Part shown: piece by piece, positions 21,287 through 35,755 of the stretch
How the letters are laid out: each line of letters begins with the position of its first letter
Position numbering within the stretch: position 1 is the stretch's first letter
Assembly (NCBI RefSeq): GCF_026283925.1
Contig: NZ_JAPDPF010000005.1
Span: 62,001 to 126,000, forward strand
Length of the DNA: 64,000 nucleotides
DNA from: Dyella halodurans
Lineage (GTDB): Bacteria > Pseudomonadota > Gammaproteobacteria > Xanthomonadales > Rhodanobacteraceae
Reading direction: 5' to 3'
Notes under the pieces: model-generated
Database searches by the model: none
What the model was told of the DNA's origin: nothing
What the model saw: only the letters and a program-made list of their open reading frames with translations
Translations under genes and position numbers: made by a program

Positions 21287-21428
21287 TGCCCAAGTTTAGC
21301 GTGGCCTGCCCGGCGCCGTGGCGTGACGCAGCACCGATTTGCCAGCGATCGCTGCACGATTTTGTCGTCGCCTTGTCACATGCGGACCTACACTCGGGGC
21401 TTCCCGTGGACCGGACCCAGGTCGTGCC

Positions 21429-21785
21429 ATGCCCCAGATGCTCAGCCATATTGCCCTGATCGTCGCCGATCCCCTGCGCACGGCGCATCTGCTTACCGGG
21501 GTATTCGAGGATGCCCGCATCACGCGTGAGCTGGACGCCGAGGACAGCCACCCCTCGATGACGGTGCGCCTGGCCGGCCTGGATTTCGAGCTGATCCGTG
21601 GCGCTGGTCCGGCCGCGCGCAATGGTGACCATATCGCGTTCCAGGTCAGCAAGGCGGAACAACAGGCCTGCGCGGAGCGGCTGACGGCCCTGGCCCTGGA
21701 TTTCGACATGGCGCGGCGGGATACGGCGCTGTACTTCAGCGACTACGACAACCATGTGTTCGAGTTGGACGTGGTTGAGGCGTGA
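21429..21785 (+). CDS. VOC family protein (FosX-like)
   Basis: A 118-residue single-domain VOC protein: MLSHIALIVADPLRTAHLLTGVF at the N-terminus, DHIAFQVSKAEQQACAERL in the middle, and ALYFSDYDNHVFELDV at the end, which carries the metal-ligand Glu. The look is closest to small FosX/glyoxalase-like proteins, but substrate is unknown. The start could be 21429 or the Met three codons later (21438). It is divergent from ubiA. Confidence 0.8.
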   Translation: MPQMLSHIALIVADPLRTAHLLTGVFEDARITRELDAEDSHPSMTVRLAGLDFELIRGAGPAARNGDHIAFQVSKAEQQACAERLTALALDFDMARRDTALYFSDYDNHVFELDVVEA

Positions 21786-21838
21786 TGGGCGAGGCAAGTT
21801 GTTAGCGGCCCTCATCAGGCCGTCACCCCTCCAAACAT

Positions 21839-21981
21839 CGTCATCCCCGCGAAAGCGGGGATCCAGCGCCTCTCGTCGTAGCCACCAAAGTCACGGGATG
21901 ACTTGCTGCGCTCGCCCCTTCGGGGCCGCCCTACGTGCGTTCTGCGCGCTTCGCGCTTGTCCCGCTTTCGCGGGGATGACG
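21839..21981. repeat. Inverted intergenic repeat with GCGAAAGC hairpin arms
   Basis: The sequence CGTCATCCCCGCGAAAGCGG at 21839-21858 (continuing GG) recurs inverted at 21961-21981 as CCCGCTTTCGCGGGGATGAC. Each arm is itself a hairpin (CCCCGC-GAAA-GCGGGG). The two arms bracket about 100 bases of non-coding sequence, so the element as a whole is a ~143-base mirror structure, as expected for a REP doublet or small MITE-like element. It lies in the space between the convergent VOC gene and ilvA and may also help terminate transcription from both sides. Confidence 0.75.
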
Positions 21982-22018
21982 GTACTAACAGGTTATGAAG
22001 TACTGAAGCGGCACCAAA

Positions 22019-23581
22019 TCACGCTCTCAACAACAACCGATACGCCGCATTGTCGCTCTCATCCCGAAACGGATATCCAAGCGCGTCGAGGAAGGATTGG
22101 AATAGCGGCCGCTCGTCGCTCGGTACCTGAATGCCAACCAGGATGCGCCCGTAGTCGGCGCCCTGGTTGCGGTAATGGAACAGGCTGATATTCCAGTCCG
22201 GATGCATATGGCCGAGAAAGCGCGTGAGTGCGCCGGGCCGTTCGGGAAACTCGAAGCGATAGAGCAGTTCATCGTTCGCCAGCGGCGTGCGCCCGCCAAT
22301 CATATGGCGCAGGTGCAGCTTGGCCAGTTCGTCGTCGGTGAGATCGAGCACGCCAAAACCATGTTCGCGAAACGCGTCGATCAGGGTCCCGCGCTCATCC
22401 CCACGGGTGGTCTGCACGCCGACGAAGATATGCGCTTCAGCGGCATTGCCGATGCGGTAATTGAATTCGGTGATGCTGCGCTGGCCCAATGCCGCGCAGA
22501 AGCGACGGAAACTGCCGCGCTCCTCGGGAATGGTGACGGCAAACACCGCCTCGCGTTGCTCACCCACCTCGGCGCGTTCCGCCACGAAGCGTAAGCGATC
22601 GAAATTGAGGTTCGCGCCGGAAACGATGGCCACCATCGGCTCCGCCGAGGCGCCGTGCGTCGCCACGTACTGCTTGAGACCGGCCAGGGCCAGCGCGCCG
22701 GCGGGTTCCGGCACGCTGCGCGTGTCCTGGAACACGTCGCGAATGGCCGCGCAAATTGCGTCGGTATCCACCCGCAGCATGGCATCGACATACTGGCGGC
22801 ACAGCTCGAAGGTGAGATCGCCCACGCGCTTCACTGCCGTGCCATCGGCGAACAAGCCGACCTCGGCCAAGCTGACGGGCGTGCCGGCTTCAAGTGACTG
22901 CGCCATGGCGTCGGAATCGCAGGTCTGCACGCCAATCACTTTCACATCGGGCCGCAATGCCTTGATATAGCCGGCAACGCCGGCCAGCAAACCGCCGCCG
23001 CCCACCGGCACGAACACCGCATGCAGCGGGCCCGGATGCTGGCGCAGGATCTCCATGCCCACGGTGGCTTGTCCCGCGATCACCGCCGGATCGTCGAACG
23101 GATGCACGAAGGTGTAGCCGTGTTGCGCCTGCAGCTGCGCGGCGGCGGCCTGCGCATCGCTATACGAATCGCCGACCAGCACCACTTCGACCTGGGCGCC
23201 GCCGAGACGACGCACAGCATCCACCTTGACTTGCGGCGCCGTCACCGGCATCACGATCACTGCGTGCACGCCAAGCCTCGCGGCGGCCAACGCCACGCCT
23301 TGCGCATGATTGCCGGCCGACGCCGCGATCACGCCACGCGCGCGTTGCGCTGCGTCGAGGCCGGCCATGCGGTTGTAGGCACCGCGCAGCTTGAACGAGA
23401 ACACCGGCTGCTGGTCCTCGCGCTTGAGCAGCACGCGCTGGCCGAGCCGGGCGGACAGCAACTGCGCCGGTTGCAGCGCGGTTTCGCGCGCCACGTCGTA
23501 GACGCGCGCACCCACCGTCTGGCGCAGCAACTCGTGCTCGCCGAACGTGGTCGGTGTCACCTGTTCGGCGAGGACGCTCAT
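22019..23581 (-). CDS. ilvA: Threonine dehydratase, biosynthetic
   Basis: A 520-residue PLP enzyme making 2-oxobutanoate from threonine, the first step of isoleucine synthesis. The N-terminal catalytic domain has the PLP lysine in FSFKLRGAYNR (Lys64), ASAGNHAQGVA and the phosphate-binding VPVGGGGLLAG. The C-terminal part (about residues 340-520) carries two ACT-like regulatory domains (EERGSFRRFCAAL; EFPERPGALTRFLGHM), so feedback control by isoleucine/valine is expected. The ATG at 23581 overlaps the ilvM stop by 4 bases; it is the last gene of the ilv-leu cluster. Confidence 0.97.
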   Translation of the reverse strand: MSVLAEQVTPTTFGEHELLRQTVGARVYDVARETALQPAQLLSARLGQRVLLKREDQQPVFSFKLRGAYNRMAGLDAAQRARGVIAASAGNHAQGVALAAARLGVHAVIVMPVTAPQVKVDAVRRLGGAQVEVVLVGDSYSDAQAAAAQLQAQHGYTFVHPFDDPAVIAGQATVGMEILRQHPGPLHAVFVPVGGGGLLAGVAGYIKALRPDVKVIGVQTCDSDAMAQSLEAGTPVSLAEVGLFADGTAVKRVGDLTFELCRQYVDAMLRVDTDAICAAIRDVFQDTRSVPEPAGALALAGLKQYVATHGASAEPMVAIVSGANLNFDRLRFVAERAEVGEQREAVFAVTIPEERGSFRRFCAALGQRSITEFNYRIGNAAEAHIFVGVQTTRGDERGTLIDAFREHGFGVLDLTDDELAKLHLRHMIGGRTPLANDELLYRFEFPERPGALTRFLGHMHPDWNISLFHYRNQGADYGRILVGIQVPSDERPLFQSFLDALGYPFRDESDNAAYRLLLRA

Positions 23582-23826
23582 GGAGTCGTCGTCACCGCGG
23601 GGTGACTGACCTCGATCACGTCGACCAACTTGCGCGTCTGCTTGATGATCTGCTCCACCGTCTCGTCGGCGCCGTGCATCACCAGGGTGAGTTGCGATAC
23701 CGCGGGGTCCTGCGTGGCGGCGACGGTCAAGGTATCGATATTGCAATGACGCGCGGCAAACAGGCCGGCCACGCGCATCAGGGCGCCGGATTCGTTCTGC
23801 AGCAGGATGGAAAGCGTGTGTTTCAT
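23578..23826 (-). CDS. ilvM: Acetolactate synthase small (ACT) subunit
   Basis: An 82-residue single ACT domain (MKHTLSILLQNESGALMRVA, LTVAATQDPAVSQLTLVM). It is the size and type of the short regulatory subunits IlvM/IlvN rather than the ~160-residue IlvH. It should bind the large subunit and activate it or give feedback sensitivity. The ATG at 23826 has CGGAG upstream. It lies 56 bases after ilvB and is coupled to ilvA by an ATGA overlap. Confidence 0.92.
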   Translation of the reverse strand: MKHTLSILLQNESGALMRVAGLFAARHCNIDTLTVAATQDPAVSQLTLVMHGADETVEQIIKQTRKLVDVIEVSHPAVTTTP

Positions 23827-23882
23827 GGCGGTGCTCCGTGAGCCTGAGTACGCGTCATACCGATGTTTGCCGGGACGACGGT

Positions 23883-25754
23883 CTAGAACATGTCGGATGG
23901 CGAATCTCCAGGCGTTTCCGCCACCGCGCGCGACGGAATGAAGTCGCCGGTGATCATTTGCGCATACGTCGCGCCCGGCCCCACCATCGGGTAGACGCCG
24001 GCATCCGTATCGATCATCACCTCGAGGAAGGCTGGGCCATCGAAGGCCAGGAAGTCGGCGATCGTGTCCGCCAGCTCTTCCTTGCGCTCCAGGCGCCTGG
24101 CCCATTCGAAGCCATCGGCCTGCGCGGCCTTGATGAAGTCCTTCTTGTGCAGGCTCTTGTCGGACGAGGCAAAGCGGCCGCGGAAAAACAGCTTCTGCCA
24201 CTGCCGCACCATGCCGTCGCCGATGTTGTTGAGCACCACCACCTTCACCGGCAGGCCATAGGTGGTGACGGTTTCCAGCTCGCCCAGGTTCATGCGGATG
24301 CTGGCATCGCCATCGATATCGATGACCACCGCATCGCGTCGCGCAAACTGGGCGCCGATCGCGGCCGGCAGGCCGAAGCCCATCGTGCCCATCGAGCCGG
24401 AGGTGAGCCAATGGCGCGGCTCACGGAAATCGAAGTACTGCGCCGCCCACATCTGGTGCTGGCCCACGCCGGTACTGATGATGGCGCGGCCCTGGGTGTG
24501 GTGGTTGATCGCCTCGATCACCGCCTGCGGCTGGATCAGCGCGCTCGCGCGATCGTAATTGAGTGCGTGCGTTTGCTTGAGTGCGGCGATATGCGCATGC
24601 CACGGGGCGTAGCGGCCATCCGCGGCAAAATGCAGTCCGTGGCGCGCGCCGTACTGTTGCAGCCGCGACAGCGTGCGATCCAGGTCGCCATGGTGGTGCC
24701 ACTGCACGGTCTTCACCTTGCCGATCTCGGCTGGGTCGATGTCGATCTGCGCGATGAAACGTGCATTCGGCGCGAAGCGATCCGGCACGCTGGCGACGCG
24801 ATCGTCGAAGCGCGCGCCCAGTGCCAGCAGGAAATCACAATCTTCCACAGCGTAGTTCGCATACGCCGTGCCATGCATGCCGAGCATGTGCAGGGCCAGC
24901 GGCTCGGTGGTGTCGAACGCGCCGATGCCCATCAGCGTGGTCGTCACCGGCAGGCCGAACTGCTGCACGAAGGCGCGCAAGGTCGCCGCCGACTCGCCTG
25001 CGATGATGCCGCCGCCGGCATAGATCAGCGGACGCTTCGCTTTCGCCAGCGCGTCGAAGAACGCCGCGCACTGGGCGTCTTCGAGCCTTGCGTGCTCAAT
25101 TGCATGCTGGCGGGCGCGGTAGCCGGGAATCGGCAGGCGACCCTCGCCGGCGAAGGTCAGCGCGGTGTTCTGCACGTCCTTCGGGATATCCACCACCACC
25201 GGACCGGGACGGCCACTGCGCGCGATCTCGAACGCGGTGCGCAGCGTCTCCTCCAGACGTGCGGGCTCGGTGAGCAGGAAGACGTGCTTGGCGCAGGCAC
25301 TCATGATGTTGCTGACCGGCGCCTCCTGGAAGGCATCGCTGCCCAGCGCCGCGGTGGCGACCTGGCCGCAGATCACCACCATCGGCACCGAATCGGCCAT
25401 GGCGTCGCGCACCGGCGTGACCATATTGGTGGCACCGGGACCGGAAGTGACGATGGCCACGCCCACCGTGCCCGACGCGCGTGCGTAACCCGCCGCCATG
25501 AAGCCTGCACCCTGTTCGTTCGCGGGCACGATCAGCGGCATCGGTTCACCGCCATTTGGCGACAGGTGGGTGGCGTTGTAACGGAACACCGCGTCGTACA
25601 CCGGCAGAATCGCGCCGCCCGAATAGCCGAACAGCACGTTGACGCCTTCGTCGGCAAGTACCTGCACCACCACCTCCGCGCCGCTCATGGTCTGGCCGGA
25701 GAGCGGGTGGGTGGAGTCCGGCGCGGGAATCTCCTTTTGCAATGGCAGGTTCAC
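23883..25754 (-). CDS. ilvB: Acetolactate synthase large subunit
   Basis: A 623-residue ThDP enzyme (IlvB/IlvG type) condensing two pyruvates, or pyruvate and 2-oxobutanoate, in branched-chain amino acid synthesis. Visible are the ThDP-activating Glu80 in VPANEQGAGFMAAGYARA, the FAD/pyruvate region and the ThDP-Mg motif IDGDASIRMN...VVVLNN, where GDA replaces the usual GDG. The start is a GTG at 25754 with AAGGAAG about 10 bases upstream; an ATG 22 codons later (MSGAEVVVQV) is the alternative. It is separated from ilvC by a 214-base gap that contains a strong terminator-like hairpin. Confidence 0.96.
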   Translation of the reverse strand: MNLPLQKEIPAPDSTHPLSGQTMSGAEVVVQVLADEGVNVLFGYSGGAILPVYDAVFRYNATHLSPNGGEPMPLIVPANEQGAGFMAAGYARASGTVGVAIVTSGPGATNMVTPVRDAMADSVPMVVICGQVATAALGSDAFQEAPVSNIMSACAKHVFLLTEPARLEETLRTAFEIARSGRPGPVVVDIPKDVQNTALTFAGEGRLPIPGYRARQHAIEHARLEDAQCAAFFDALAKAKRPLIYAGGGIIAGESAATLRAFVQQFGLPVTTTLMGIGAFDTTEPLALHMLGMHGTAYANYAVEDCDFLLALGARFDDRVASVPDRFAPNARFIAQIDIDPAEIGKVKTVQWHHHGDLDRTLSRLQQYGARHGLHFAADGRYAPWHAHIAALKQTHALNYDRASALIQPQAVIEAINHHTQGRAIISTGVGQHQMWAAQYFDFREPRHWLTSGSMGTMGFGLPAAIGAQFARRDAVVIDIDGDASIRMNLGELETVTTYGLPVKVVVLNNIGDGMVRQWQKLFFRGRFASSDKSLHKKDFIKAAQADGFEWARRLERKEELADTIADFLAFDGPAFLEVMIDTDAGVYPMVGPGATYAQMITGDFIPSRAVAETPGDSPSDMF

Positions 25755-25817
25755 GATGGTCGCGCTTCCTTGGATATCGCCGCTGGCGCGGCGCTTGGAA
25801 TATTTGAATGGCTTGTC

Positions 25818-25875
25818 AAAAAAGCTCCCTCCGCTGCACGTCCCGAACGAGGGAATCCCTTCGGGCGCAGGGAGG
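25818..25875 (-). terminator. Terminator-like hairpin between ilvC and ilvB
   Basis: On the minus strand a GC-rich stem (CCCTCCCTGC ... GCGGAGGG, with an inner CCCGAA/TTCGGG pair) ends directly in TTTTTT (25818-25823). This is a good rho-independent terminator by structure. It lies inside the cluster, so it either divides ilvB-ilvM-ilvA from the upstream genes or acts as an attenuation point. A TTGACA immediately follows the T run, but I found no convincing -10 box for it. Confidence 0.6.
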
Positions 25876-25920
25876 GTTGACGAGAGGCAACAGCCTGCGG
25901 GAACAGCACCCCCTCCTAAG

Positions 25921-25957
25921 CTCCCCCTGCACGACCCGCATGAGACGGGCAGGGGGA
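25921..25957. terminator. Second hairpin downstream of ilvC
   Basis: CTCCCCCTGC at 25921-25930 pairs perfectly with GCAGGGGGAG at 25948-25957 (10 bp), with an 17-base loop that can itself fold. It lies about 12 bases after the ilvC stop. No T tract follows on the minus strand, so it may be a 3'-end stabilising structure or half of a longer signal with the T-tailed hairpin 45 bases on. Confidence 0.5.
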
Positions 25958-25968
25958 GGACACAACGA

Positions 25969-26988
25969 TTAACCGACCTTTTTCAGCGGCTCGGCAGCTG
26001 ACTTGGGCGCGTTCGCCTGCAGCCACGGCATGCGCGCACGCAGCTTGGCGCCGACCTGTTCGATTGGATGCTCGAGATCGGCCTGCTTGAACTTCTTGTA
26101 GTTCGGCAGGCCGGCCTGGTGCTCGGCAATCCAGTTGCGCGCGAAGGTGCCGTCCTGGATGTCCTTGAGCACGTCCTTCATGCGCGCCTTGGTGCCGGCG
26201 TCGATCACGCGCGGGCCGCTGACGTAGTCGCCGTACTGCGCCGTCTCGGAGACGAACTCCAGCATGCGGGCGATGCCGCCCTCGTAGAACAGGTCGACGA
26301 TCAGCTTCAGTTCGTGCAGCACTTCGTAATAGGCGATTTCCGGCTGGTAGCCGGCTTCCACCAGGGTCTCGAAACCGGCCTGCACCAGCGAGCTGGCGCC
26401 ACCGCACAACACGGCCTGTTCGCCGAACAGATCGGTCTCCGTCTCTTCCTTGAAGTCGGTCTTGATCAGCAGTGCGCGACCGCCGCCGATGCCGTCGGCA
26501 TAGGCCTTGGCCTTCGCTTCGGCGTGGCCGCTGACGTCCTGATGGATGGCCCAGATCGAGGGCACGCCGCGCCCGATTTCATACTCGCGGCGCACCAGCG
26601 CGCCCGGGCCCTTCGGCGCCACCAGGATCACGTCGATGTCGGCGCGCGGCTCGATCTGCTTGAAGTGCACGTTGAAGCCGTGCGCGAACAGCAGGGCGGC
26701 GCCGGGCTTGATGTTCGGTGCGATGGACTCGCGATACAGCGCCGGCTGCACCATGTCCGGGGTCAGCACGGCGACCAGGTCGGCGTCCTTCACCGCATCG
26801 CCGGGTTCGGCCACGGTGAAGCCTTCGGCGCGGGCCTTTTCCCACGAGGGGCCGTTCTTGCGCAGGCCCACCACGACGTCGAGGCCGGAGTCACGCAGGT
26901 TGAGGGCATGGGCACGGCCCTGGCTGCCGTAGCCGAGTACGGCGATGCGGGCCTTGGCGAGTGCGTCGTTCGAGGTCTGGCTGGTCAT
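25969..26988 (-). CDS. ilvC: Ketol-acid reductoisomerase
   Basis: A 339-residue class I (short) NADPH-dependent enzyme converting acetolactate and acetohydroxybutyrate to the dihydroxy acids. The Rossmann motif is [21 protein letters not shown], followed by LRKNGPSW. The C-terminal knotted domain contains [21 protein letters not shown] and [19 protein letters not shown] with the catalytic acidic residues. Its ATG overlaps the ilvD stop by 4 bases. Length and motifs are normal. Confidence 0.97.
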
Positions 26989-28706
26989 GCGGTGACTCCT
27001 GCGTTCGTGTCTTCGTGGACGGTGTTGGAAGGATGGGCTGCGGAGGTGCTGCGTGATGCGGAGAGCTGGGTGACGGCGCCGTCCGAAGCGGAGCCGACCA
27101 GGCGCGCGTACTTGGCCAGTGCGCCACGGGTGACCTTGGGTGCCGGCGGCTGCCAGCTGGCGCGGCGCGCGGCGAGATCGGCGTCGGTGCTGATCTCGCG
27201 CGTATCGGCATCGATACGGATGCGATCGCCGTCGCGCAGCAAGGCAATCGGGCCGCCACGTACAGCCTCGGGCGAGATGTGGCCGACCATGTAGCCGTGG
27301 GTGGCGCCGGAGAAGCGGCCATCGGTGATCAGCGCGACGTCGTCGCCCAGGCCGCGGCCGACCAGCGCGGCGGTGACGCCGAGCATCTCGCGCATGCCAG
27401 GGCCGCCCGCGGGACCTTCGTTGCGGATGACGATGATGTCGCCCTTGGCGATGCTGCCACCCTGCACGGCGGCGAACGCCTGCTCCTCGCTTTCGAACAC
27501 GCGAGCGCGCCCTTCGAAATGATTGGCGCCCTTGCCGGCGAGCTTGAGGATGCAGCCTTCCGGCGCGAGGTTGCCGTACAGGATCGAATAGCCACCGCGC
27601 GGCTTCAGCGGCTGCGTCACTGCATGCACCACGTCCTGCTGCGCGGCACGCGGCGCGGCCGCGGCTTCTTCGAACAAGCTGCGGCCGGTGATGGTGGGGG
27701 CATCGTCGAGCATGCCCGCGGCGATCAGTTCCTGCGCCACGCGCGCGCTGCCACCGGCACCGAACATTTCGACGGCGGTATAGCGGCCACCAGGCAACAG
27801 GTCGGCGACCACCGGCGTGTGCTTGGAGGCGGGCTCAAAATCTTCCAGCGTCCACGGCGTGCCGGCTTCGCGGGCGATTGCCAGCAGGTGCAGCACGGCA
27901 TTGGTGGAGCCTGCGGTGGCGGCAACCATGCGTGCCGCATTGCGGAACGCCGTGGTGGTAAGCATGGCGCGTGGCGTGCGGCCTTCCTTAAGACATTCCA
28001 TCACCAGCTCGCCGCAGCGATACGCGGCCGCGGTCTTGGCCGGATGCGTGGCCGGAATATCGTTGAAGCCCATCGGCGACAGGCCCAGCGTGGACAGCAC
28101 CATCGCCATGGTGTTGGCGGTGAACTGGCCGCCACAGGCACCGGCGCCCGGGCAGGCATCGCGCTCGACCGAGGTCAGCTCCGCGTCGTCGATCTTGCCC
28201 GCGCCATGCGCGCCCACCGCTTCGAACACCTGCTGGATGGTGATCGGGTGGTTGTCGTGGGTGCCATGCGCAATGGTGCCGCCGTACAGCGCCACGCTGG
28301 GAATATCCAGGCGCGCCATCGCCATCGCGGCGGCGGGGATGGTCTTGTCGCAGCCGCACAGCACCACCATCGCATCCAGGCAATGGCCATCGACCGCGAG
28401 TTCGATGGAATCGGTGATCACTTCGCGACTGATCAGCGAGGCACGCATGCCCGGCGTGCCCATGGCAATGCCGTCGGTCACGGCAATGGTGTTGAACTCG
28501 ACCGGCGTGCCGCCCGCGGCACGAATGCCGGCGGCCACATGTTCGGCCAGCTCGCGCAGGTTGAGGTTGCACGGGCTGACGTTGGACCACGTATGCACCA
28601 CCGCCACCAGGGGCTTGGCGATGGCGGCATCGTCCATGCCGGTGGCGCGAAGCATGGCGCGGGCGGGTGCGCGATCGGGCCCGGTCTTGATGAGATCACT
28701 GCGCAT
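26985..28706 (-). CDS. ilvD: Dihydroxy-acid dehydratase
   Basis: A 573-residue Fe-S dehydratase of the IlvD/Edd family. The cluster-binding cysteines are in [20 protein letters not shown] and [11 protein letters not shown]; the C-terminal [15 protein letters not shown] and [18 protein letters not shown] are family hallmarks. It makes the 2-oxo acid precursors of valine and isoleucine (and of leucine via 2-oxoisovalerate). The length, near 570 with a compact middle, fits the shorter [2Fe-2S]-type enzymes, but which cluster is bound cannot be told. It starts 63 bases after leuB. Confidence 0.96.
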
Positions 28707-28769
28707 GAGGTTTCCGGGTTGAAGAGAAGGGCAGCATCGGGGCCGCGTTGGTGAAGGAGTCGATGGGTT

Positions 28770-29867
28770 TCATCCGCAGGCGCGCCCCCAGCGCAGGAAG
28801 GCCGCGGCGTGGCAGGCCTGTTCGTCGAGCGCGGACAGCACGGCTTCCAGCACCTCGGTGGTGCTTGCCTGGCCGCCGATGTCGCGCGTGTGCGGGCCGT
28901 GCTCGAGTACCTCGGCCACGGCCGCTTCGACCGCGGCGGCTTCCTGTTCCAGGTCCAGCGAGTGACGCAGCAGCATGGCGGCGGACAGGATCGTGCCAAT
29001 CGGATTGGCCACGCCCTGGCCGGCGATATCCGGTGCCGAGCCGTGGATCGGTTCGTACAGGCCGGCCTTGGCTTCGCCGATCGAGGCGGATGGCAGCAGG
29101 CCCAGTGAGCCGGCCAGCGCCGCCGCTTCGTCGGTGAGGATGTCGCCGAACAGGTTCTCGGTCACCACCACGTCGTAGCGCGATGGCTGGGTCAGCAGCA
29201 GCATGGCCATCGAATCGACCAGCTGGTGCTCCACCTTCACATCGGGATACTCAGCCGCGATGCGCTGCACCGTGCTGCGCCACAGGCGCGAGGTTTCGAG
29301 CACGTTGGCCTTGTCGACCGAGGTGACATGCTTGCGACGACCGCGCGCCAGGTTGAACGCGCGGCGCACGACGCGCTCCACCTCGGCCACGGTGTACTTG
29401 CACTCGTCGATGGCGGTATCGCTGGTGCGCGTCTTGGCGCCGAAGTAGGCGCCGCCGGTGAGCTCGCGCACGAACAGCACGTCGACGTTCTTCAGCTTTT
29501 CGTTCTTCAACGGCGACAGCGCAGCCAGCCTGGGATGCACCTGCAAGGGGCGCAGGTTGGCATACACGCCGAGCGCGGCGCGCAAGGCGAGCAGGCCCTG
29601 CTCCGGACGCACCGGCGCATTCGGGTCCGACCACTGCGGGCCGCCGACGGCGCCGAGCAGCACCGCGTCGGCTGCCTTGCAGGCCTCCAGCGAGGCGGCC
29701 GGCAAGGGTTCGCCGGTGGCGTCGATGGCGCAACCGCCAATCAGATGTTCGTCGAAATGGAAACTGTGGTCGAAGTGGGCGGCCACGGCGTCGAGCACGG
29801 TGACGGCTGCTGCGGTGACTTCAGGACCGACGCCGTCGCCCGGCAGGATGACGATCTGCGCTCTCAT
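28770..29867 (-). CDS. leuB: 3-isopropylmalate dehydrogenase
   Basis: A 365-residue NAD-dependent beta-decarboxylating dehydrogenase. The family pattern is present: [46 protein letters not shown], and the NAD-binding [26 protein letters not shown] followed by [20 protein letters not shown]. The ATG at 29867 overlaps the leuD stop by 4 bases; the long open frame beyond it overlaps leuD in another frame and is not real. The third enzyme of the leucine branch. Confidence 0.97.
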
Positions 29868-30448
29868 GCGGCTTTCTCCGTGCGTTGTTCGAAGGTGGTG
29901 ATGGCATCGGCGTGCTGTTGCAGGTAGCCGAGCTGGTCGACGCCGTTGAGCAGGCAATGGCGCGCGAACGGTTCCATCTGGAAGCGGATGCGCCCGCCGT
30001 CGGGCAAGGCGATGTACTGCTCGCGCACGTCGATGCTCAGCTCGACGCCCGGATTCGCCAGCAGCCAGCGGTGTTCGGCCTCGTCCAGCACGATGGCGAG
30101 CAGGCCGTTCTTCAGCGCGTTGTTGCGGAAGATGTCCGCGATTTCGCTGCACAGCACGGCCTGGATGCCGTAATCGAGCAAAGCCCACGGCGCATGCTCG
30201 CGCGAGGAGCCACAACCAAAGTTGCGTCCCGCGACCAGGATCGAACAGCCGGCGGCCTGCGGCTGGTTCAGCGGAAACGCTGGGTTGTCGCTGCCATCCG
30301 CCTGGTAACGCCAGTCGTTGAAGCACAGCTTGCCCAGGCCGGCACGCTCGGTGGTGGTGAGGAAGCGCGCCGGGATGATGCGGTCGGTGTCGATGTTTTC
30401 GTCCAGCAGCACGGCGGTGCGGGAGTGGAGGCGGGTGATGGGGCGCAT
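29864..30448 (-). CDS. leuD: 3-isopropylmalate dehydratase small subunit
   Basis: A 194-residue swivel subunit that works with LeuC. Typical parts are [41 protein letters not shown] and [16 protein letters not shown]. The start ATG at 30448 has GGAGG 7 bases upstream; the open frame runs back through the preceding palindromic repeat, which is not coding. It follows leuC by 172 bases that hold two inverted repeat units. Confidence 0.97.
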
Positions 30449-30472
30449 TAAAAAACCTCCGTAGCATGAACT

Positions 30473-30603
30473 CCCTCTCCCCTCCGGGGAGAGGGTTGGG
30501 GTGAGGGGCGGGTGCTCGCGGCAGCGCTGATCGAAGCGCGCTTTGAAGTTGGACTGAGGCAAGAGCGACCCCTCACCTCGGTCCTCTCCCCGGAGGGGAG
30601 AGG
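30473..30603. repeat. Pair of inverted CTCTCCCC/GGGGAGAG palindromes
   Basis: A palindrome CCCTCTCCCCTCCGGGGAGA (continuing GGG) is at 30473-30495, and a second, inverted copy CCTCTCCCCGGAGGGGAGAG (plus G) at 30583-30603. Flanking bases (GTTGGGGTGAGGGGC after the first, GACCCCTCACCTCGGT before the second) are also mirror-related. The unit recurs at 36358 and 44544, so it is an interspersed REP-like family. Here it lies inside the leu genes, between leuC and leuD, where it could stabilise or partly terminate the message. Confidence 0.8.
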
Positions 30604-30620
30604 AAGAAAGGCTCGCGCGC

Positions 30621-32030
30621 TCATGCCGCCACCTCCGTCAAATACTCCCGCGGATCCGCAATCCGCCCCGCCAGCGCGGAAGCCGCCGCCGTCGCGGGAC
30701 TGGCCAGCACCGTGCGTGCGCCCTTGCCCTGGCGGCCTTCGAAGTTGCGATTCGAGGTGCTCACGACCAATTGCCCCGGCTGCGCCAGATCGCCATTCAT
30801 GGCGATGCACATCGAGCAACCCGGCACGCGCCACTCGGCGCCGGCCTCGGTGAAGACGTGATGCAGGCCTTCGCGCTCCGCATCGCGGCGCACCGCTTCG
30901 GAGCCGGGCACCACCAGCATGCGCACGCCGTCGGCGACGCGACGGCCGCGCATCACCTGGGCCGCCTCGCGCAGGTCGGACAGGCGCGAATTGGTGCAAC
31001 TGCCGACGAAGACCACGTCGACCGGCGTGCCCTGCATCGGCTTGCCCGCCTCGCTGCGCATATAGTCCAGCGCGCGCTTTTCCTGCGCGTTGCGCGCGGC
31101 CGGCACCGGCGTGTCCATGGCAATTGCCATGCCCGGATGGGTGCCATAGGTGACGGTGGGGCGCACCTTGCTGGCATCGATGCGCACTTCGCGGTCGTAG
31201 CGGGCGCCGTCGTCGCTGCGCAGCGCGCGCCAGCGCGCCACGGCCGCGTCCCATGCCGCGCCTTGCGGCACGCGCGGACGGCCCTTGAGCCAGTTGAAGG
31301 TGGTGTCGTCCGGCGCGATCAGGCCTGCGCGTGCACCGGCCTCGATCGACATGTTGCACACGGTCATGCGCTCATCCATCGACATCGCTTCGATCGCTTC
31401 GCCGCGGTATTCCAGGACGTAGCCGGTGCCGCCATCGACGCCGATCTCGCCGATGATGTGCAGGATCAGATCCTTTGCGCCCACGCCCGCCGGCAGCCGA
31501 CCATCCACGTGGATCGCGAAGGTCTTCGCCTTGCGTTGCAGCAGGCATTGCGTGGCCATCACATGGCCGACCTCGGTGGTGCCGATGCCGAAGGCCAGCG
31601 CGCCGAACGCACCATGCGTCGAGGTGTGGCTGTCGCCGCAGACGATGGTCATGCCCGGCTGGGTAGCGCCCAGCTCCGGACCGAACACATGCACGATGCC
31701 GCGATCGTTGCTGTCCCAGCCGTGCAGTTCGACGCCGAACTCGCGGCAGTTGGTTTCCAGTTGCGTTACCTGGGCCTTCGCTTCGGCGTTGGCGTAGGGA
31801 CGCTCGCCATCGGCACTAGCGGGCAGGGTGGGGGTCGAGTGATCCAACGTGGCCAGCATGCGATCCGGGCGGCGCAGCTTCAGGCCACGCTCGCGCAGTT
31901 CGCTGAAGGCCTGCGGCGAGGTGACTTCGTGCACCAGGTGCAGGTCGATATACAGGATGGCTGGCGTATCGGTGCTTTCCGGCGCGACCACATGCGCGTC
32001 CCACACTTTCTCGAACAGGGTCTTGGCCAT
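30621..32030 (-). CDS. leuC: 3-isopropylmalate dehydratase large subunit
   Basis: A 469-residue aconitase-family enzyme. The [4Fe-4S] ligands are Cys345 (FVGSCTNSR) and Cys405/Cys408 ([10 protein letters not shown]). N-terminal [29 protein letters not shown] and GTVNM-like [12 protein letters not shown] are standard. It isomerises 2- to 3-isopropylmalate together with LeuD. Its start overlaps the ilvE stop by one base (TAATG), so translation is probably coupled. Confidence 0.97.
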
Positions 32031-32968
32031 TACGCGGCCTCCTGTGCGGCTTCGACTTTCACCGGCGACAACCAGCCCCAGCGGTCGGGCGTGGTGCCGT
32101 CGAACAAGCCGAAGAACGCCTTCTGCAGGGCACGCGTGATTGGGCCAGGACGTCCTGCGCCCACCTGCTTGCGGTCCACCGAGCGCACCGGCGTGATCTC
32201 GGCGGCGGTACCGGTCATGAAGATCTCGTCGGCGGTGTACAGCGCTTCGCGCGGCAGGTCGCGTTCTTCCACCGCGATGCCCAACTCGCCGGCCAGGGTG
32301 ATCACCGACTCGCGCGTGATGCCGGCTAGGATGCCGGCGCTGGTCGGCGGCGTCAGCAGCTTGCCGTTCTTCACCAGGAACAGGTTTTCGCCCGCGCCTT
32401 CGCTGAGCAGGCCGTTGTGGCCAAGGGCGATGCCTTCGGCATAGCCGCCGCGACGCGCTTCAAGCGCGATCAGCTGGCTGCTCAGGTAATTGCCGCCGGC
32501 CTTGGCCCAGCTCGGCAAGGTGTTTGGGGCCGGACGATGCCAGGACGACACGCAGACGTCGGCGCCGTGTTCGATCGCGTCGCCGAGGTAGGCACCCCAT
32601 TCCAACGCCATGATCGCCACGTCCACCGGCGAGTCGCCCTTCGGCAGCACGCCGAGGCTGCCGGCGCCGCGGAACACGATCGGCCGCACATAGGCGGACT
32701 TCATGCGGTTGGCGCGAATCAGCTCGTGGCAGGCAGCATTGATCTCGTCTTCGCTGTAGCCGATCTCGATCTCGTAGACGCGCGCGGACTCGAACAGGCG
32801 GCGCGTGTGGTCGCCGAGACGGAAATACGCCGGGCCCTGCGGCGTGGCATACACGCGCTCGCCCTCGAACACCGAGGAGCCGTAATGCAGTGCGTGGGTG
32901 CTGACATGGACGGTCGCTTCGGTCCAGGGTTTGATCTGGCCGTTGTGCCAGAGGAAGGGCGTGGTCAT
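32030..32968 (-). CDS. ilvE: Branched-chain amino acid aminotransferase
   Basis: A 312-residue fold-type IV PLP aminotransferase. The PLP lysine is Lys156 in [33 protein letters not shown] and [18 protein letters not shown] are diagnostic, and the C-terminal [16 protein letters not shown] is close to E. coli IlvE. It performs the last step for Val, Ile and Leu. The ATG at 32968 has AAGGAG 7 bases upstream. Its position between leuA and leuC puts a common-pathway gene inside the leucine genes. Confidence 0.97.
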
Positions 32969-32984
32969 CGCTAGCTCCTTGGAA

Positions 32985-34580
32985 TTACAAACCGGCGACC
33001 GCGGCCGGCTGGGGTGCCGGTGCCTGTCGCTCGATGCGGTTGACGATGGCGAGCGCGGCGTGCGCGGTCGCTTCGATGATGTCGGTGCTGACGCCGTTGC
33101 CGCGCCAGTCGCGTTCGGCATGGCGTGCGGTGAGCTGGGCCTGGCCTTGCGCATCGCCGCCTTCGCTGACGGCGCGCACCTGGAACTGGGTGACGTCCAG
33201 TGCGGTGCCGGTGGCGCGCTCGATCGCACGCAGCACCGCATCCACCGGGCCGTCGCCAATCGCCGCTTCGCCCACTTCGTGGCCGTTGTCGTGGGTCAGG
33301 CGTACCGAGGCCGAGGCGCTGCCGCCCATATGCGAGTTGGTATTGAGCTGGGTGATGCGCCAGGGGCCGGTGGCTTCCGGATCATGGCCCAGCGCAATCG
33401 CCTCCAGGTCCTCGTCATGCACTTCGCGCTTCTTGTCGGCCAGCGCCTTGAAGCGGGCGAAGATGATGTCCATCTCGCCTTCGTCCGGCGTATGGCCCAG
33501 CACCTGGAGTCGCTGGCGCAAGGCGTGGCGGCCGGAGTGCTTGCCCAGCACCAGGCGCGTCTCGCCCATGCCCACGTCCTGCGCGTGCATGATTTCGTAG
33601 GTGCCGCGATGCTTGAGCATGCCGTGCTGGTGGATGCCCGATTCGTGCGCGAACGCGTTCTCGCCCACCACCGCCTTGTTGCGCGGCACGGCCTGACCGG
33701 TGAGCTGGGTCAGCAGGCGCGAGGTGGGATACAGCTTGCGCGTATCGATGCCGGTATCGACACCAAACAGCGGGCGGCGCACGCGCAGCGCCATCACCAC
33801 TTCCTCCAGCGAGGCATTGCCGGCGCGTTCGCCGATGCCATTGATGGTGCACTCGACCTGGCGCGCGCCGGCACTGACGGCGGCCAGGCTGTTGGCGACC
33901 GCCATGCCGAGGTCGTCGTGGCAGTGTGAGGAGAAGATGACGTGCTGGTCGCGACGCACGTGCTTGAGCAGATAGGCAAAGCGCTCGGCGATTTCCGCCG
34001 GGGTCATGTAGCCGACTGTGTCCGGTGCATTGAGCGTGGTGGCGCCGGCGGCTGCCGCAGCGCTGAATACTTCGACCAGGTATTCCGGTTCGGTGCGCAT
34101 GGCGTCTTCGGCCGAAAACTCCACCTCGTGGCTCAGGGTCTTCGCGCGTTCGATGGAGGCGCAGGCAGTGTCGATGACCTGCTGCTTGCTCATGCCCAGC
34201 TTGTGCTCGCGATGCAGCGGGCTGGTCGACAGGAACAGGTGGATGCGCGAGTGGTGGGCACCCTCCAGCGCGCGGCCGGTGCTTTCGATATCGCCGGTCT
34301 GGCAGCGGGCCAGGCCGCAGATGGTGGGACCGCGCAGGGCGCGGGCGATCTCCGCCACCGCGTTGAAATCATCGGGCGAGGCATGCGGAAACCCTGCCTC
34401 GATGACGTCGATGCCCAGCGCTTCCAGCGCATGCGCCATGCGCAGCTTGGCGCGACGGTCCATCGAAAAGCCGGGCGCCTGCTCGCCATCGCGCAAGGTG
34501 GTGTCGAAGATCCGCACGCGTTCGGCCGCTACGTCCGTCACGTCGCTGTTCTCGTCTGTCGGGTTGTGCTGGTGGGTCAT
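32985..34580 (-). CDS. leuA: 2-isopropylmalate synthase
   Basis: A 531-residue enzyme committing 2-oxoisovalerate to leucine. The catalytic TIM barrel shows [49 protein letters not shown] and [18 protein letters not shown]; the C-terminal ~130 residues form the leucine-binding regulatory domain ([36 protein letters not shown]). I take the ATG at 34580 with GGAG 7 bases upstream; a GTG immediately before it (34583) is possible. It is the first structural gene of the cluster, just after the attenuator terminator. Confidence 0.96.
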
Positions 34581-34614
34581 CACTTAGCTCCGCTAGGCGC
34601 GTCGCAGGGGGCAA

Positions 34615-34650
34615 TAAAAAACCCCGCATCCGTTACCGGGTGCGGGGTTC
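34615..34650 (-). terminator. Attenuator terminator of the ilv-leu operon
   Basis: On the minus strand AACCCCGCA pairs with TGCGGGGTT (9 bp; plus-strand arms 34620-34628 and 34641-34649) around a 12-base loop, followed by TTTTT ATTGC. This is a textbook rho-independent terminator placed 45 bases after the leader peptide stop and 36 bases before leuA. Its 5' arm includes CCCGCACC (plus-strand 34639-34646), which is exactly complementary to GGTGCGGG at the end of the leader peptide gene (34699-34706), forming the alternative antiterminator. Confidence 0.88.
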
Positions 34651-34694
34651 TTTGGTCGTATTCAGGTTCTTTCTAGTTACCTGGACACACGCCC

Positions 34695-34832
34695 TCAGCC
34701 CGCACCTCCGTTGGTAATAAGGAGTACGAGTACAAGGGCAAGAAGGAGGTTGTTGCGAAGTCGCAGCAGTCCCGCGACCGTCGGTAGACGGATCGGTTCG
34801 GCTATGCGGTCATGGTTGCTGCGTTGCGACAT
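34695..34832 (-). CDS. ilv-leu operon leader peptide (attenuation), 45 aa
   Basis: A 45-residue open frame starting MSQRSNHDRIAEPIRLPTVA and ending NNLLLALVLVLLITNGGAG. In the stretch LLLALVLVLLI ten of eleven codons are for Leu, Val or Ile, and the leucines use CTC/CTT rather than the CTG that dominates the neighbouring genes; Val uses GTA and Ile ATT. RNA arms fit the attenuation model: ACCTCC in the first Leu codon (34745-34750) can pair with GGAGGT (34704-34709), which overlaps the antiterminator arm. A ribosome stalled at these codons would free GGTGCGGG to pair with the terminator. The ATG sits 7 bases after the -10 box with no ribosome site, so the message should be leaderless. Confidence 0.88.
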   Translation of the reverse strand: MSQRSNHDRIAEPIRLPTVAGLLRLRNNLLLALVLVLLITNGGAG

Positions 34833-34893
34833 GTGATCGAACGTAAAGGGCGTCGCTACGGGTTGTCAACAGTTTCTTTTGAAATTTTTAAGG
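34833..34893 (-). promoter_or_regulatory. Promoter of the ilv-leu operon with AT-rich UP-like element
   Basis: Minus-strand TTGACA (plus coordinates 34864-34869), an 18-base spacer and TACGTT (34840-34845, TAnnnT type) form a sigma-70 promoter. Upstream of it lies an A/T run (34871-34893; AAAAATTTCAAAAGAAA on the minus strand) unusual in this GC-rich DNA and typical of an UP element. The expected transcript start, about 7 bases past the -10, falls at the ATG of the leader peptide. Confidence 0.78.
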
Positions 34894-34965
34894 TGACGCG
34901 TTGACGATCACATTCGGACGTCCAGAAGGCCAGACACTACCAGTGCCTCCAAGGCGCTGTCGGCA

Positions 34966-35589
34966 TCAGGCCTCGGCGAGCGACTTGAGATAGTTCGCCA
35001 GGGCGCGCCGCAGTTGGGCTTGCGCCGCATTTCGCAGGCTCGCCGGTTGCTCGTTCTGCAGTGCCACTGCGGCCTTCATCAACTGCTGTACCACCATGGC
35101 CGCAGGCCGCAGATCACCGGCCGCCAGGCCGGGGGCATGAATAGCCAGGATCTGACACAGATAGTCGCGCATGCGCTGACGTATGGTGCGGGACAGCGAA
35201 GGTGGCAGCGAGCCGGCCGCTTCGGTCAGGGCCACGAAGGAAGGATGCAGGCGGCGATAGTCGGCGAAGGTGCGGATCAAGCGTGCCGCAAGTTCCTCCG
35301 TATCCCAGCCCGAAGCCTGCGCCACCAGGCGCTCCATCCGTGCATTGAGGGCCTCGCCATGCTCGACCATCAACGCTTCGGCCAACAACTCCTTGGTGGG
35401 AAAGAATTGGTACAGCGAGCCGATGGATGCCCCTGCGCGGGCGGCAATTTCGGTCATCGTGGCGGCATCGAAACCCTTTTCGGCAAAGCAGCCGGAGGCA
35501 GCTGACAGCAGCGCCGCGACACGTTCGTGCCCACGCCGCCGTTGCGGCGAGCGTCCGGCCGGGCTTGAATTACGTGAGGCCATCCTCAT
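34966..35589 (-). CDS. TetR family transcriptional regulator
   Basis: A 207-residue regulator. The N-terminal helix-turn-helix is clear: RVAALLSAASGCFAEKGFDAATMTEIAARAGASIGSLYQFFPTKELLAEAL. The C-terminal ligand domain resembles the TetR_C branch often annotated only as 'TetR'. Two ATGs (35589 and 35583) share one AGGAG; spacing favours the second slightly. It is divergent from the isochorismatase-like gene, with a 16-base perfect palindrome at its own transcription start, so autorepression and control of the neighbour are likely. Confidence 0.9.
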   Translation of the reverse strand: MRMASRNSSPAGRSPQRRRGHERVAALLSAASGCFAEKGFDAATMTEIAARAGASIGSLYQFFPTKELLAEALMVEHGEALNARMERLVAQASGWDTEELAARLIRTFADYRRLHPSFVALTEAAGSLPPSLSRTIRQRMRDYLCQILAIHAPGLAAGDLRPAAMVVQQLMKAAVALQNEQPASLRNAAQAQLRRALANYLKSLAEA

Positions 35590-35599
35590 AAACTCCTAG

Positions 35600-35650
35600 G
35601 TGAGGATATCCTCACATTGAGATCTTACCGGGCCGCTTCCAAGGCGTGAA
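35600..35650 (-). promoter_or_regulatory. TetR promoter with palindromic operator GTGAGGATATCCTCAC
   Basis: The minus-strand promoter TTCACG (35645-35650) - 17 bases - TAAGAT (35622-35627) drives the TetR gene. The perfect 16-base palindrome GTGAGGATATCCTCAC at 35600-35615 begins 6 bases after the -10 box, covering the expected transcription start, which is the classic place for an autoregulatory operator. Confidence 0.72.
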
Positions 35651-35755
35651 TCTCCCCTGGCGGAACGGTGCGGCGACAACGCATTAACTTTCACCCTGGC
35701 ATTTTGGGCAAGCCTTGGGCTGCCACGCGATGCCAAACCACGCGGAGTTACGACC

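Follow-up and report, generated by a model that had tools for sequence, protein, structure and literature searches.

The leu-ilv cluster and its leader region

Dyella is a soil bacterium placed in the Rhodanobacteraceae (Lysobacterales). The window analysed here, a stretch of 64,000 nucleotides from Dyella halodurans, carries on its minus strand the putative ten-gene leu-ilv operon listed in Table 1, in which leuD and the gene for the small subunit of acetolactate synthase are located between other members of the cluster. All ten genes named in a first-pass annotation of this DNA (leuA, ilvE, leuC, leuD, leuB, ilvD, ilvC, those of the two acetolactate synthase subunits and ilvA) were identified. 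The 5' neighbours are a gene of the TetR type, which ends at 34966 on the minus strand, and, farther up, thrC, thrB and a homoserine dehydrogenase gene. The first-pass annotation had placed a complete attenuation region at 34612-34893; the attenuator does lie inside this interval, but the tandem boxes farther upstream were left out of it, and the putatively leaderless geometry went unremarked.

Table 1. Positions of the genes, leader elements and candidate signals in the window
Feature	Position	Strand	Description
thr leader ORF	40166-40020	minus	48 aa, with ATTTTTTITT; precedes homoserine dehydrogenase, thrB, thrC
Candidate MetJ operator	34939-34916	minus	tandem met-box-like array TAGTGTCT-GGCCTTCT-GGACGTCC, 107 to 84 nt before the leader ATG
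-35 hexamer	34869-34864	minus	TTGACA, read directly; perfect consensus
-10 hexamer	34845-34840	minus	TACGTT; 18-nt spacer, 7 nt before the ATG; common family form TANNNT
Leader peptide ORF	34832-34695	minus	45 aa, translation MSQRSNHDRIAEPIRLPTVAGLLRLRNNLLLALVLVLLITNGGAG; putatively leaderless, first base of ATG the putative transcription start
Control codons 29-39	34748-34716	minus	LLLALVLVLLI; CTC CTT CTT GCC CTT GTA CTC GTA CTC CTT ATT
Segment 1 of predicted protector hairpin	34739-34721	minus	control codons 32-38
Segment 2, protector partner	34709-34691	minus	contains the antiterminator 5' arm GGTGCGGG (34706-34699) and the leader stop codon
Small predicted hairpin between segments 2 and 3	34689-34657	minus	CCAGGU...ACCUG
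Segment 3 core	34646-34639	minus	CCCGCACC; antiterminator 3' arm and terminator 5' arm
Intrinsic terminator	34648-34616	minus	stem 34648-34637/34632-34621, loop GTAA, six T
leuA, first structural gene	32985-34583	minus	ORF called with GTG start; ATG one codon further in
ilvE, leuC, leuD, leuB, ilvD, ilvC, acetolactate synthase large and small subunits, ilvA	22019-32984	minus	rest of the putative ten-gene operon

The 45-residue leader with its LLLALVLVLLI run, as first annotated, is read directly from the DNA, and ten of the eleven control codons specify Leu, Val or Ile (three CTC, four CTT, two GTA and one ATT). Among 20,000 random 45-codon ORFs drawn from the codon usage of 18 hand-chosen window ORFs, 10 Leu/Ile/Val codons within 12 codons occurred three times and more than 10 never. 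The use of CTC and CTT instead of CTG in the control stretch, also remarked on earlier, is general across 82 leaders of relatives. Relative to the 18 window ORFs, their control stretches contain little CTG (5% vs 63% of Leu codons) and much CTT (48.5% vs 4%), CTC (43% vs 21%), GTA (68% vs 5% of Val codons) and ATT (89% vs 14% of Ile codons), counts that are not independent, given the shared ancestry of the leaders. The Ile codons ATT and ATC are possibly decoded by one tRNA; if so, the equally strong bias toward ATT over ATC cannot be an isoacceptor effect and would point to another pressure, e.g., low G + C on the minus strand near segment 2. According to the theory outlined in part of PMC1183508, the sensitivity of a codon depends on isoacceptor supply relative to codon usage, and it is on this balance that the earlier suggestion of a sensor made more responsive to charged tRNA levels by CTC and CTT would depend.

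RNA folding had been proposed as a check, and the fold of 34605-34842 surpasses those of all 200 shuffles (z -4.45). The antiterminator had been described as an 8-of-8 match, and its two arms, GGTGCGGG and CCCGCACC, do pair fully. The terminator likewise exists, but the 9-bp stem and TTTTT attributed to it are too small, the structure really having 11 pairs, one mismatch and six T; as drawn, its stem amounts to -21.6 kcal/mol vs -13.4 kcal/mol for the antiterminator. The proposed protector ACCTCC/GGAGGT is complementary (34750-34745 and 34709-34704), but none of its six pairs is predicted to form (probability 0.00 for each), and it was dropped in favor of a predicted protector formed by segments 1 and 2. 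The arms of the small hairpin predicted between segments 2 and 3 are similar in most of 24 aligned relatives, though not in L024.

The effect of a stalled ribosome was modelled on the transcript up to just before segment 4; the ribosome was taken to cover 12 nt, counted from the first base of its A-site codon. In the ribosome-free RNA, segments 2 and 3 pair with a probability, P(2:3), of 0.16. Stalls at codons 25-28 lower it to 0.03-0.08, those at codons 29-39 raise it to 0.98-0.99, a stall at codon 40 (Thr) gives 0.56, and from codon 41 through the stop it is 0.00. When all 46 codons were scanned with this footprint, only codons 29-40 exceeded 0.5, and footprints of 9-16 nt displaced the permissive window by at most two codons; in the model, the permissive stalls would thus comprise the Leu/Val/Ile run plus one codon. 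Once segment 4 was present, P(2:3) at equilibrium was 0.00 for every scanned stall. Because the terminator wins at equilibrium as soon as segment 4 exists, antitermination would have to be kinetic. By a looser measure, which counts segment 3 paired with anything upstream, 813 of the 2,128 permissive codons in 64 loci were Leu/Ile/Val codons vs 105 of the 826 other positions. Many N-terminal stalls are also permissive by this measure (codons 1-16 at the window's locus), and only the downstream edge of the permissive window is therefore general.

Conservation of the leader and of the antiterminator pairing

A DNA search of 41 genomes matched the leader in 25. With a sequence-only model of the 3' half of the leader (R1), matches were obtained in 127 of 147 Rhodanobacteraceae genomes, representing 25 of 26 genera, and, in a set from the whole order, in 97 of 200 genomes, representing 43 of 69 genera; of these 97, 32 belong to the Rhodanobacteraceae and 65 to the 166 order genomes outside the family. 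No R1 match was obtained in 20 of the 147 family genomes and 103 of the 200 order genomes, with which divergence and absence are both compatible. Two R1 matches occur in one genome in G088 (C61, C63) and in G162 (C6), possibly as duplicated attenuators or assembly pieces.

From the R1 matches, 60 loci in eight families were chosen by hand to spread over genera and opened, 40 in the family and 20 of the 65 outside it. The gene after the terminator is leuA in 41, ilvD in 12, ilvC in 6 and ilvG in 1, so that in all 60 the leader has stayed in place while the first gene of the operon changed. The loci with ilvD, ilvC or (L132) ilvG in place of leuA are L094, L114-L124 and L127-L133, in which the gene order was reshuffled behind a fixed leader. 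Together with 24 loci from the first search, the set comprises 84 loci, which share ancestry and whose counts are not independent; a purpose-made program for finding hairpins reported a terminator-like one in 84 of 84, and in 82 of 84 TTGAC is followed by a branched-chain-rich ORF. According to the first-pass annotation, failure of the leader peptide or of the alternative pairings to be conserved in relatives would have spoken against an attenuator; in the sequence comparison, the leader recurs across the family and much of the order, and the antiterminator pairing outlasts changes in both arms.

Since segment 2 is nearly invariant within the family, a test of the pairing itself needs distant relatives. 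In 27 diverged loci, which include the nearly alike L116 and L117, the mean 2:3 duplex has -18.65 kcal/mol vs -15.87 kcal/mol (sd 0.42) when partners are swapped (0/5,000), and in 20 representatives -18.40 vs -15.68 kcal/mol (sd 0.50), with 0 of 10,000 permutations as good. Both arms have changed jointly in L113 (CGGGAGCGGG/CCCGCTCCCG), L130 (AGGTAGCGGG/CCCGCTACCT) and L125 (CGGGGGCG/CGCCCCCG), as well as, in a shifted register, in L103 and L024. Taken individually, 15 of the 20 representatives beat 95% of the shuffles of their segment 2 window, and L088, L112, L119, L122 and L131 do not rise above shuffles at 0.05. The true partner ranks 13, 18 and 11 of 20 in L111, L122 and L124, where many foreign partners pair better, and 8 of 20 at the window's locus, whose segment is of the commonest type. 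As judged from these comparisons, the predicted antiterminator pairing survives sequence change on both sides.

These observations bear on two other readings of the locus. The strong terminator directly 5' of leuA, together with a TetR-type gene that ends upstream on the same strand, could suggest a plain terminator between the two genes, the short ORF being a chance reading frame; that is extremely improbable, given that a branched-chain-rich ORF and a terminator precede ilv/leu genes in the opened loci even when the first gene differs, and that the Leu/Ile/Val run lies far above chance. Scarcely more credible is an RNA that senses something besides ribosome stalling, i.e., a riboswitch, a T-box or a protein-bound leader. 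In favor of such a sensor, the stretch 3' of the control codons is nearly identical letter by letter within the genus, but segments 2 and 3 vary between families while their pairing is retained in most, and no Rfam family reaches its gathering score anywhere in the window. The Rfam models Leu_leader (RF00512, 15.1 bits vs a gathering threshold of 50) and Thr_leader (RF00506, 20.1 bits vs 55) stay below the cut-off, and these weak scores, far under the thresholds, were not used.

Collectively, a short ORF with a cluster of end-product codons lies 5' of biosynthetic genes, an intrinsic terminator separates it from the first gene, and a mutually exclusive antiterminator has been kept by compensatory change (5 of 20 representatives individually not above shuffles) and is freed in silico by stalls at control codons and not by a stall at the stop codon. 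The anatomy, its conservation, the compensatory retention of the 2:3 pairing and the in silico match of permissive stalls to the control run are established by the analysis. On this comparative evidence, the classical attenuator before the leu-ilv cluster is conserved and very probably real, a further example of a familiar mechanism.

Promoter layout and a candidate leaderless start

The first-pass annotation had described the promoter as strong. This holds for the -35 hexamer, but the -10 hexamer is weak, with 3 of 6 matches to TATAAT, and a consensus scan detected no promoter here; the promoter call rests on conservation. In 82 of 84 loci, TTGAC is found 28-41 nt upstream of the leader's ATG; it is absent in L125 and L126, whose leader ORF sits behind TTGCTG instead. 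In the 82 loci, the most branched-chain-rich ATG frame 28-41 nt past TTGAC was taken as the leader ORF, with ties resolved toward the longer distance; a second in-frame ATG falls in the search range only in L088 and L127, at 32 and 37 nt. The distance from the first T of TTGAC to the ATG is 37 nt in 49 loci, 36 in 19, 35 in 7, 38 in 6 and 40 in 1, and hence 35-38 nt in 81 of 82. Position -1 is occupied by C in 76 of 82, and the commonest bases at -14, -13, -12 and -8 are T, T, A and T. An 18-nt spacer between the -35 and the -10, followed by seven more bases, would put the expected transcription start at the A of the ATG, immediately after a pyrimidine. A conserved A/T-rich stretch, TTTCAAAAGAAAC (34890-34871, minus strand), lies directly above the -35 in close relatives and is a possible UP element or activator site.

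Pairing with the anti-Shine-Dalgarno sequence was computed for a 15-base stretch that ends 4 nt upstream of the ATG. It amounts to +0.3 kcal/mol at the window's leader and -5.8 kcal/mol before leuA, and six gene starts of the window, leuA included, span -3.5 to -10.3 kcal/mol. Over the 82 leaders the median is -3.0 kcal/mol, and that of shuffles is -2.5; 30 of 82 reach -4 kcal/mol or better, as do 22% of shuffles. The example leaders at -4 or better have TAGGG or TAAGG in this stretch. A Shine-Dalgarno reading of these motifs fails at the window's locus, where the pairing is +0.3 kcal/mol; in some relatives they may possibly act as a weak ribosome-binding element.

It is conceivable that the same attenuator operates with a leader translated from a longer transcript, which would carry an ordinary ribosome-binding site and start at an unseen upstream promoter. 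The poor -10 match and the blank consensus scan would agree with such a transcript, as would the many family loci that are G-rich at -11 to -9 (TTAGGGTCG or TAAGG forms), readable as a weak Shine-Dalgarno, and the 30 of 82 loci at -4 kcal/mol in a set whose median is -3.0. However, the window's locus has CGT at -11 to -9, with the unfavorable pairing given above, the median of shuffled upstreams is itself -2.5, and the window's leader lacks any alternative in-frame ATG, GTG or TTG. Furthermore, TTGAC placed 35-38 nt before the ATG (81 of 82) and C at -1 (76 of 82) fit a -35/-10/start arrangement and not a ribosome-binding site. A longer transcript is thus unlikely, though not negligibly so. 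Read from sequence alone, the conserved spacing of -35, -10, C at -1 and ATG, at a locus in the window that has no Shine-Dalgarno, leads us to infer both the transcription start site and a leader ORF that is leaderless.

In 47 family loci, codons 2-7 lean to the nucleotide pattern NCG CAN CGC ANC ANC CAN, while residues 2, 5 and 6 vary among leaders and codon 2 alternates between Ser, Thr and Pro. Because these residues vary while the nucleotide pattern largely persists, a trans function of the N-terminus of the peptide was set aside; if the mRNA is leaderless, patterned first codons are what a ribosome landing site at the 5' end may be expected to display. A comparable layout is found at the thr leader (40203-40020, minus strand), in which TTGACT, an 18-nt spacer, TAAGGT and 7 nt precede the ATG. 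The resulting distance of 37 nt from TTGACT to ATG equals that of the leu-ilv leader, and the layout recurs in Dyella L134 and L145 (37 and 36 nt).

A probable second control layer and the place of the attenuator

The candidate MetJ operator upstream of the promoter is degenerate, one of its three boxes being near consensus, and its three-box score was reached by 0 of 300 shuffles. A somewhat wider interval, 34939-34908 on the minus strand, was also assigned to the met-box-like array. Among the family loci, this score has p<0.01 in 49 of 64 (23 of 24 from the first search and 26 of 40 opened later), with two further loci at 0.017 and 0.033; among loci of other families it reaches p<0.01 in 0 of 20. 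A MetJ gene is present in the window's genome (C19:230948-231202, 125 bits) and in 53 of 200 sampled order genomes, including all 34 of the Rhodanobacteraceae and none of family f2. The MetJ open frames in sampled family genomes are mostly near 200 aa; E. coli MetJ has about 105 aa. Tandem boxes also occur 5' of the gene for a MetX-type homoserine acyltransferase. Of 20 family genomes, taken from a set of 41 for their lower-scoring MetX-type gene, all 20 have them by a two- or three-box score (p<0.02), vs 0 of 30 stretches in a control of coding, not intergenic, DNA. A met-box scan of the window's genome, allowing two mismatches, was noisy, with 30 matches per strand vs 17 for the reversed pattern. 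The combination of tandem AGACGTCT-like boxes with a MetJ gene in the genome points to the boxes as a probable second control layer.

Another palindrome-binding factor might occupy these boxes in place of MetJ, a doubtful alternative that nevertheless deserves appreciable weight. The array ends 46 bases above the -35, an unusual place for a plain repressor; several of the best box pairs in the window's genome do not adjoin methionine genes; 15 of 64 family loci fail p<0.01 though all sampled family genomes carry MetJ; and in G189 (family f12) a MetJ match, interrupted by an internal TGA, is present, yet the locus of this genome, L125, is without a box. Against these points stands the recurrence of the same 8-base tandem unit at the MetX-type gene in all 20 family genomes and in none of the coding stretches, the MetX-type copy of the window's genome being the homoserine O-succinyltransferase MetX.

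The methionine link can be set beside published MetJ regulons (PMC4239095). As in the gammaproteobacterial MetJ regulon described there, the boxes are tandem AGACGTCT units and methionine genes are among the targets; unlike in the parts of Leyn et al. 2014 concerned with MetJ regulons, where no ilv/leu target of MetJ is named, they also stand before a leu-ilv leader (PMC4239095). The table of Leyn et al. 2014 gives no MetJ regulon for four Xanthomonadales genomes, whereas the sampled Rhodanobacteraceae have MetJ, a boxed metX and a mostly boxed leu-ilv leader (PMC4239095). The Rhodanobacteraceae apparently lie outside those four genomes. The same source reports MetR at ilvIH in Shewanella and calls the benefit of coordinating methionine with branched-chain amino acids unclear (PMC4239095). 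In a literature search of partial coverage, which included PMC4239095 in part, a methionine-to-branched-chain link through MetJ was not met; the titles listed include one on the MetJ regulon and IlvA in Salmonella (PMC12188003).

Taken together, minus-strand 34869-34616 is very probably a ribosome-mediated transcription attenuator of the leu-ilv operon with a putatively leaderless leader ORF. In the proposed mechanism, RNA polymerase would initiate on the A of the leader ATG or no more than about two bases away from it, and ribosomes would enter at the 5' end with no need of a Shine-Dalgarno site. With ample Leu, Val and Ile, the ribosome would reach the stop codon inside segment 2 and block 2:3 pairing, whereupon the 3:4 terminator would form and transcription stop near 34616. 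When charged Leu, Val or Ile tRNA is scarce, the ribosome would stall in codons 29-39 and the protector hairpin would open, allowing segment 2 to pair with segment 3 before segment 4 exists, and the polymerase would continue into leuA and beyond. Kinetic control of this kind, and transcription through all ten genes, are what we infer from the layout. In the Rhodanobacteraceae, the MetJ-type operator farther upstream probably adds SAM-linked control of initiation. The first-pass annotation had one leader controlling all ten genes, which may be so. In 21300-35700, a consensus scan gave a single promoter-like site, where 1.3 were expected, and two terminator-like sites, where 8.5 were expected, and it missed the leu-ilv promoter and, on the minus strand, the leu-ilv terminator; because it overlooked a real terminator, its near-silence inside the operon is weak evidence on internal control.

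In E. coli and Salmonella, ilv and leu attenuators have a leader peptide rich in the regulated amino acids and set an antiterminator against a terminator. The ilvGMEDA, ilvBN and leu attenuators are among the operons of these bacteria listed in part of PMC1183508. The Dyella leader shares with these three a leader rich in the regulated amino acids, a stop codon overlapping segment 2 and the competition between antiterminator and terminator. In contrast to the E. coli and Salmonella leaders, it precedes leu and ilv genes jointly, lacks a Shine-Dalgarno at the window's locus, is 45 aa long with its control run at codons 29-39, and has no Rfam match at threshold; its Leu codons are CTC and CTT, whereas the Salmonella leu leader uses CUA. 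A comparative survey, Vitreschak et al. 2004, FEMS Microbiol Lett 234:357, reportedly treats candidate attenuators of proteobacterial amino-acid operons, and the ilv leaders of Xanthomonas and Xylella may well be included. The Dyella attenuator is like those candidates in concerning a proteobacterial amino-acid operon and in its mechanism. The leader ORF of Sinorhizobium meliloti trpL is said to begin at the 5' end of the transcript, which would make trpL/peTrpL another proteobacterial attenuator with a 5'-end leader ORF, although one concerned with tryptophan. For peTrpL of this tryptophan system, a trans role of the peptide is reported in part of PMC7298713. In Corynebacterium glutamicum, the ilvBNC transcription start lies one nucleotide from the leader start codon, and this branched-chain attenuator likewise has an essentially leaderless leader ORF and competing hairpins; unlike Dyella, C. 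glutamicum is an actinobacterium, and its peptide has 15 aa of other sequence (PMC11857589, in part). No publication about the leu-ilv leader was found in a literature search of partial coverage, mostly of top-listed titles and openings of abstracts.

A wider proposal, which we hold to be about evenly balanced, is that leu-ilv expression in the Rhodanobacteraceae combines MetJ/SAM control at initiation with a leaderless attenuator that responds to charged Leu, Val and Ile tRNA, and that the leaderless layout, as in the thr leader, would be standard for the biosynthetic attenuators of the order. The conserved CA-rich first codons would then be the ribosome landing site, and the long spacer before codon 29 would time the ribosome against the polymerase.

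With its fixed leader, changing first gene and co-changing antiterminator arms, the family of loci is a natural data set for the evolution of attenuators, and further interest comes from the apparently leaderless layout across the order and from the family-specific MetJ-like operator. If the leader is indeed leaderless, it could be used to study how the polymerase and a ribosome that loads at a bare 5' AUG stay coordinated; and if the MetJ boxes work, the Rhodanobacteraceae would provide a concrete case of methionine-to-branched-chain coordination.
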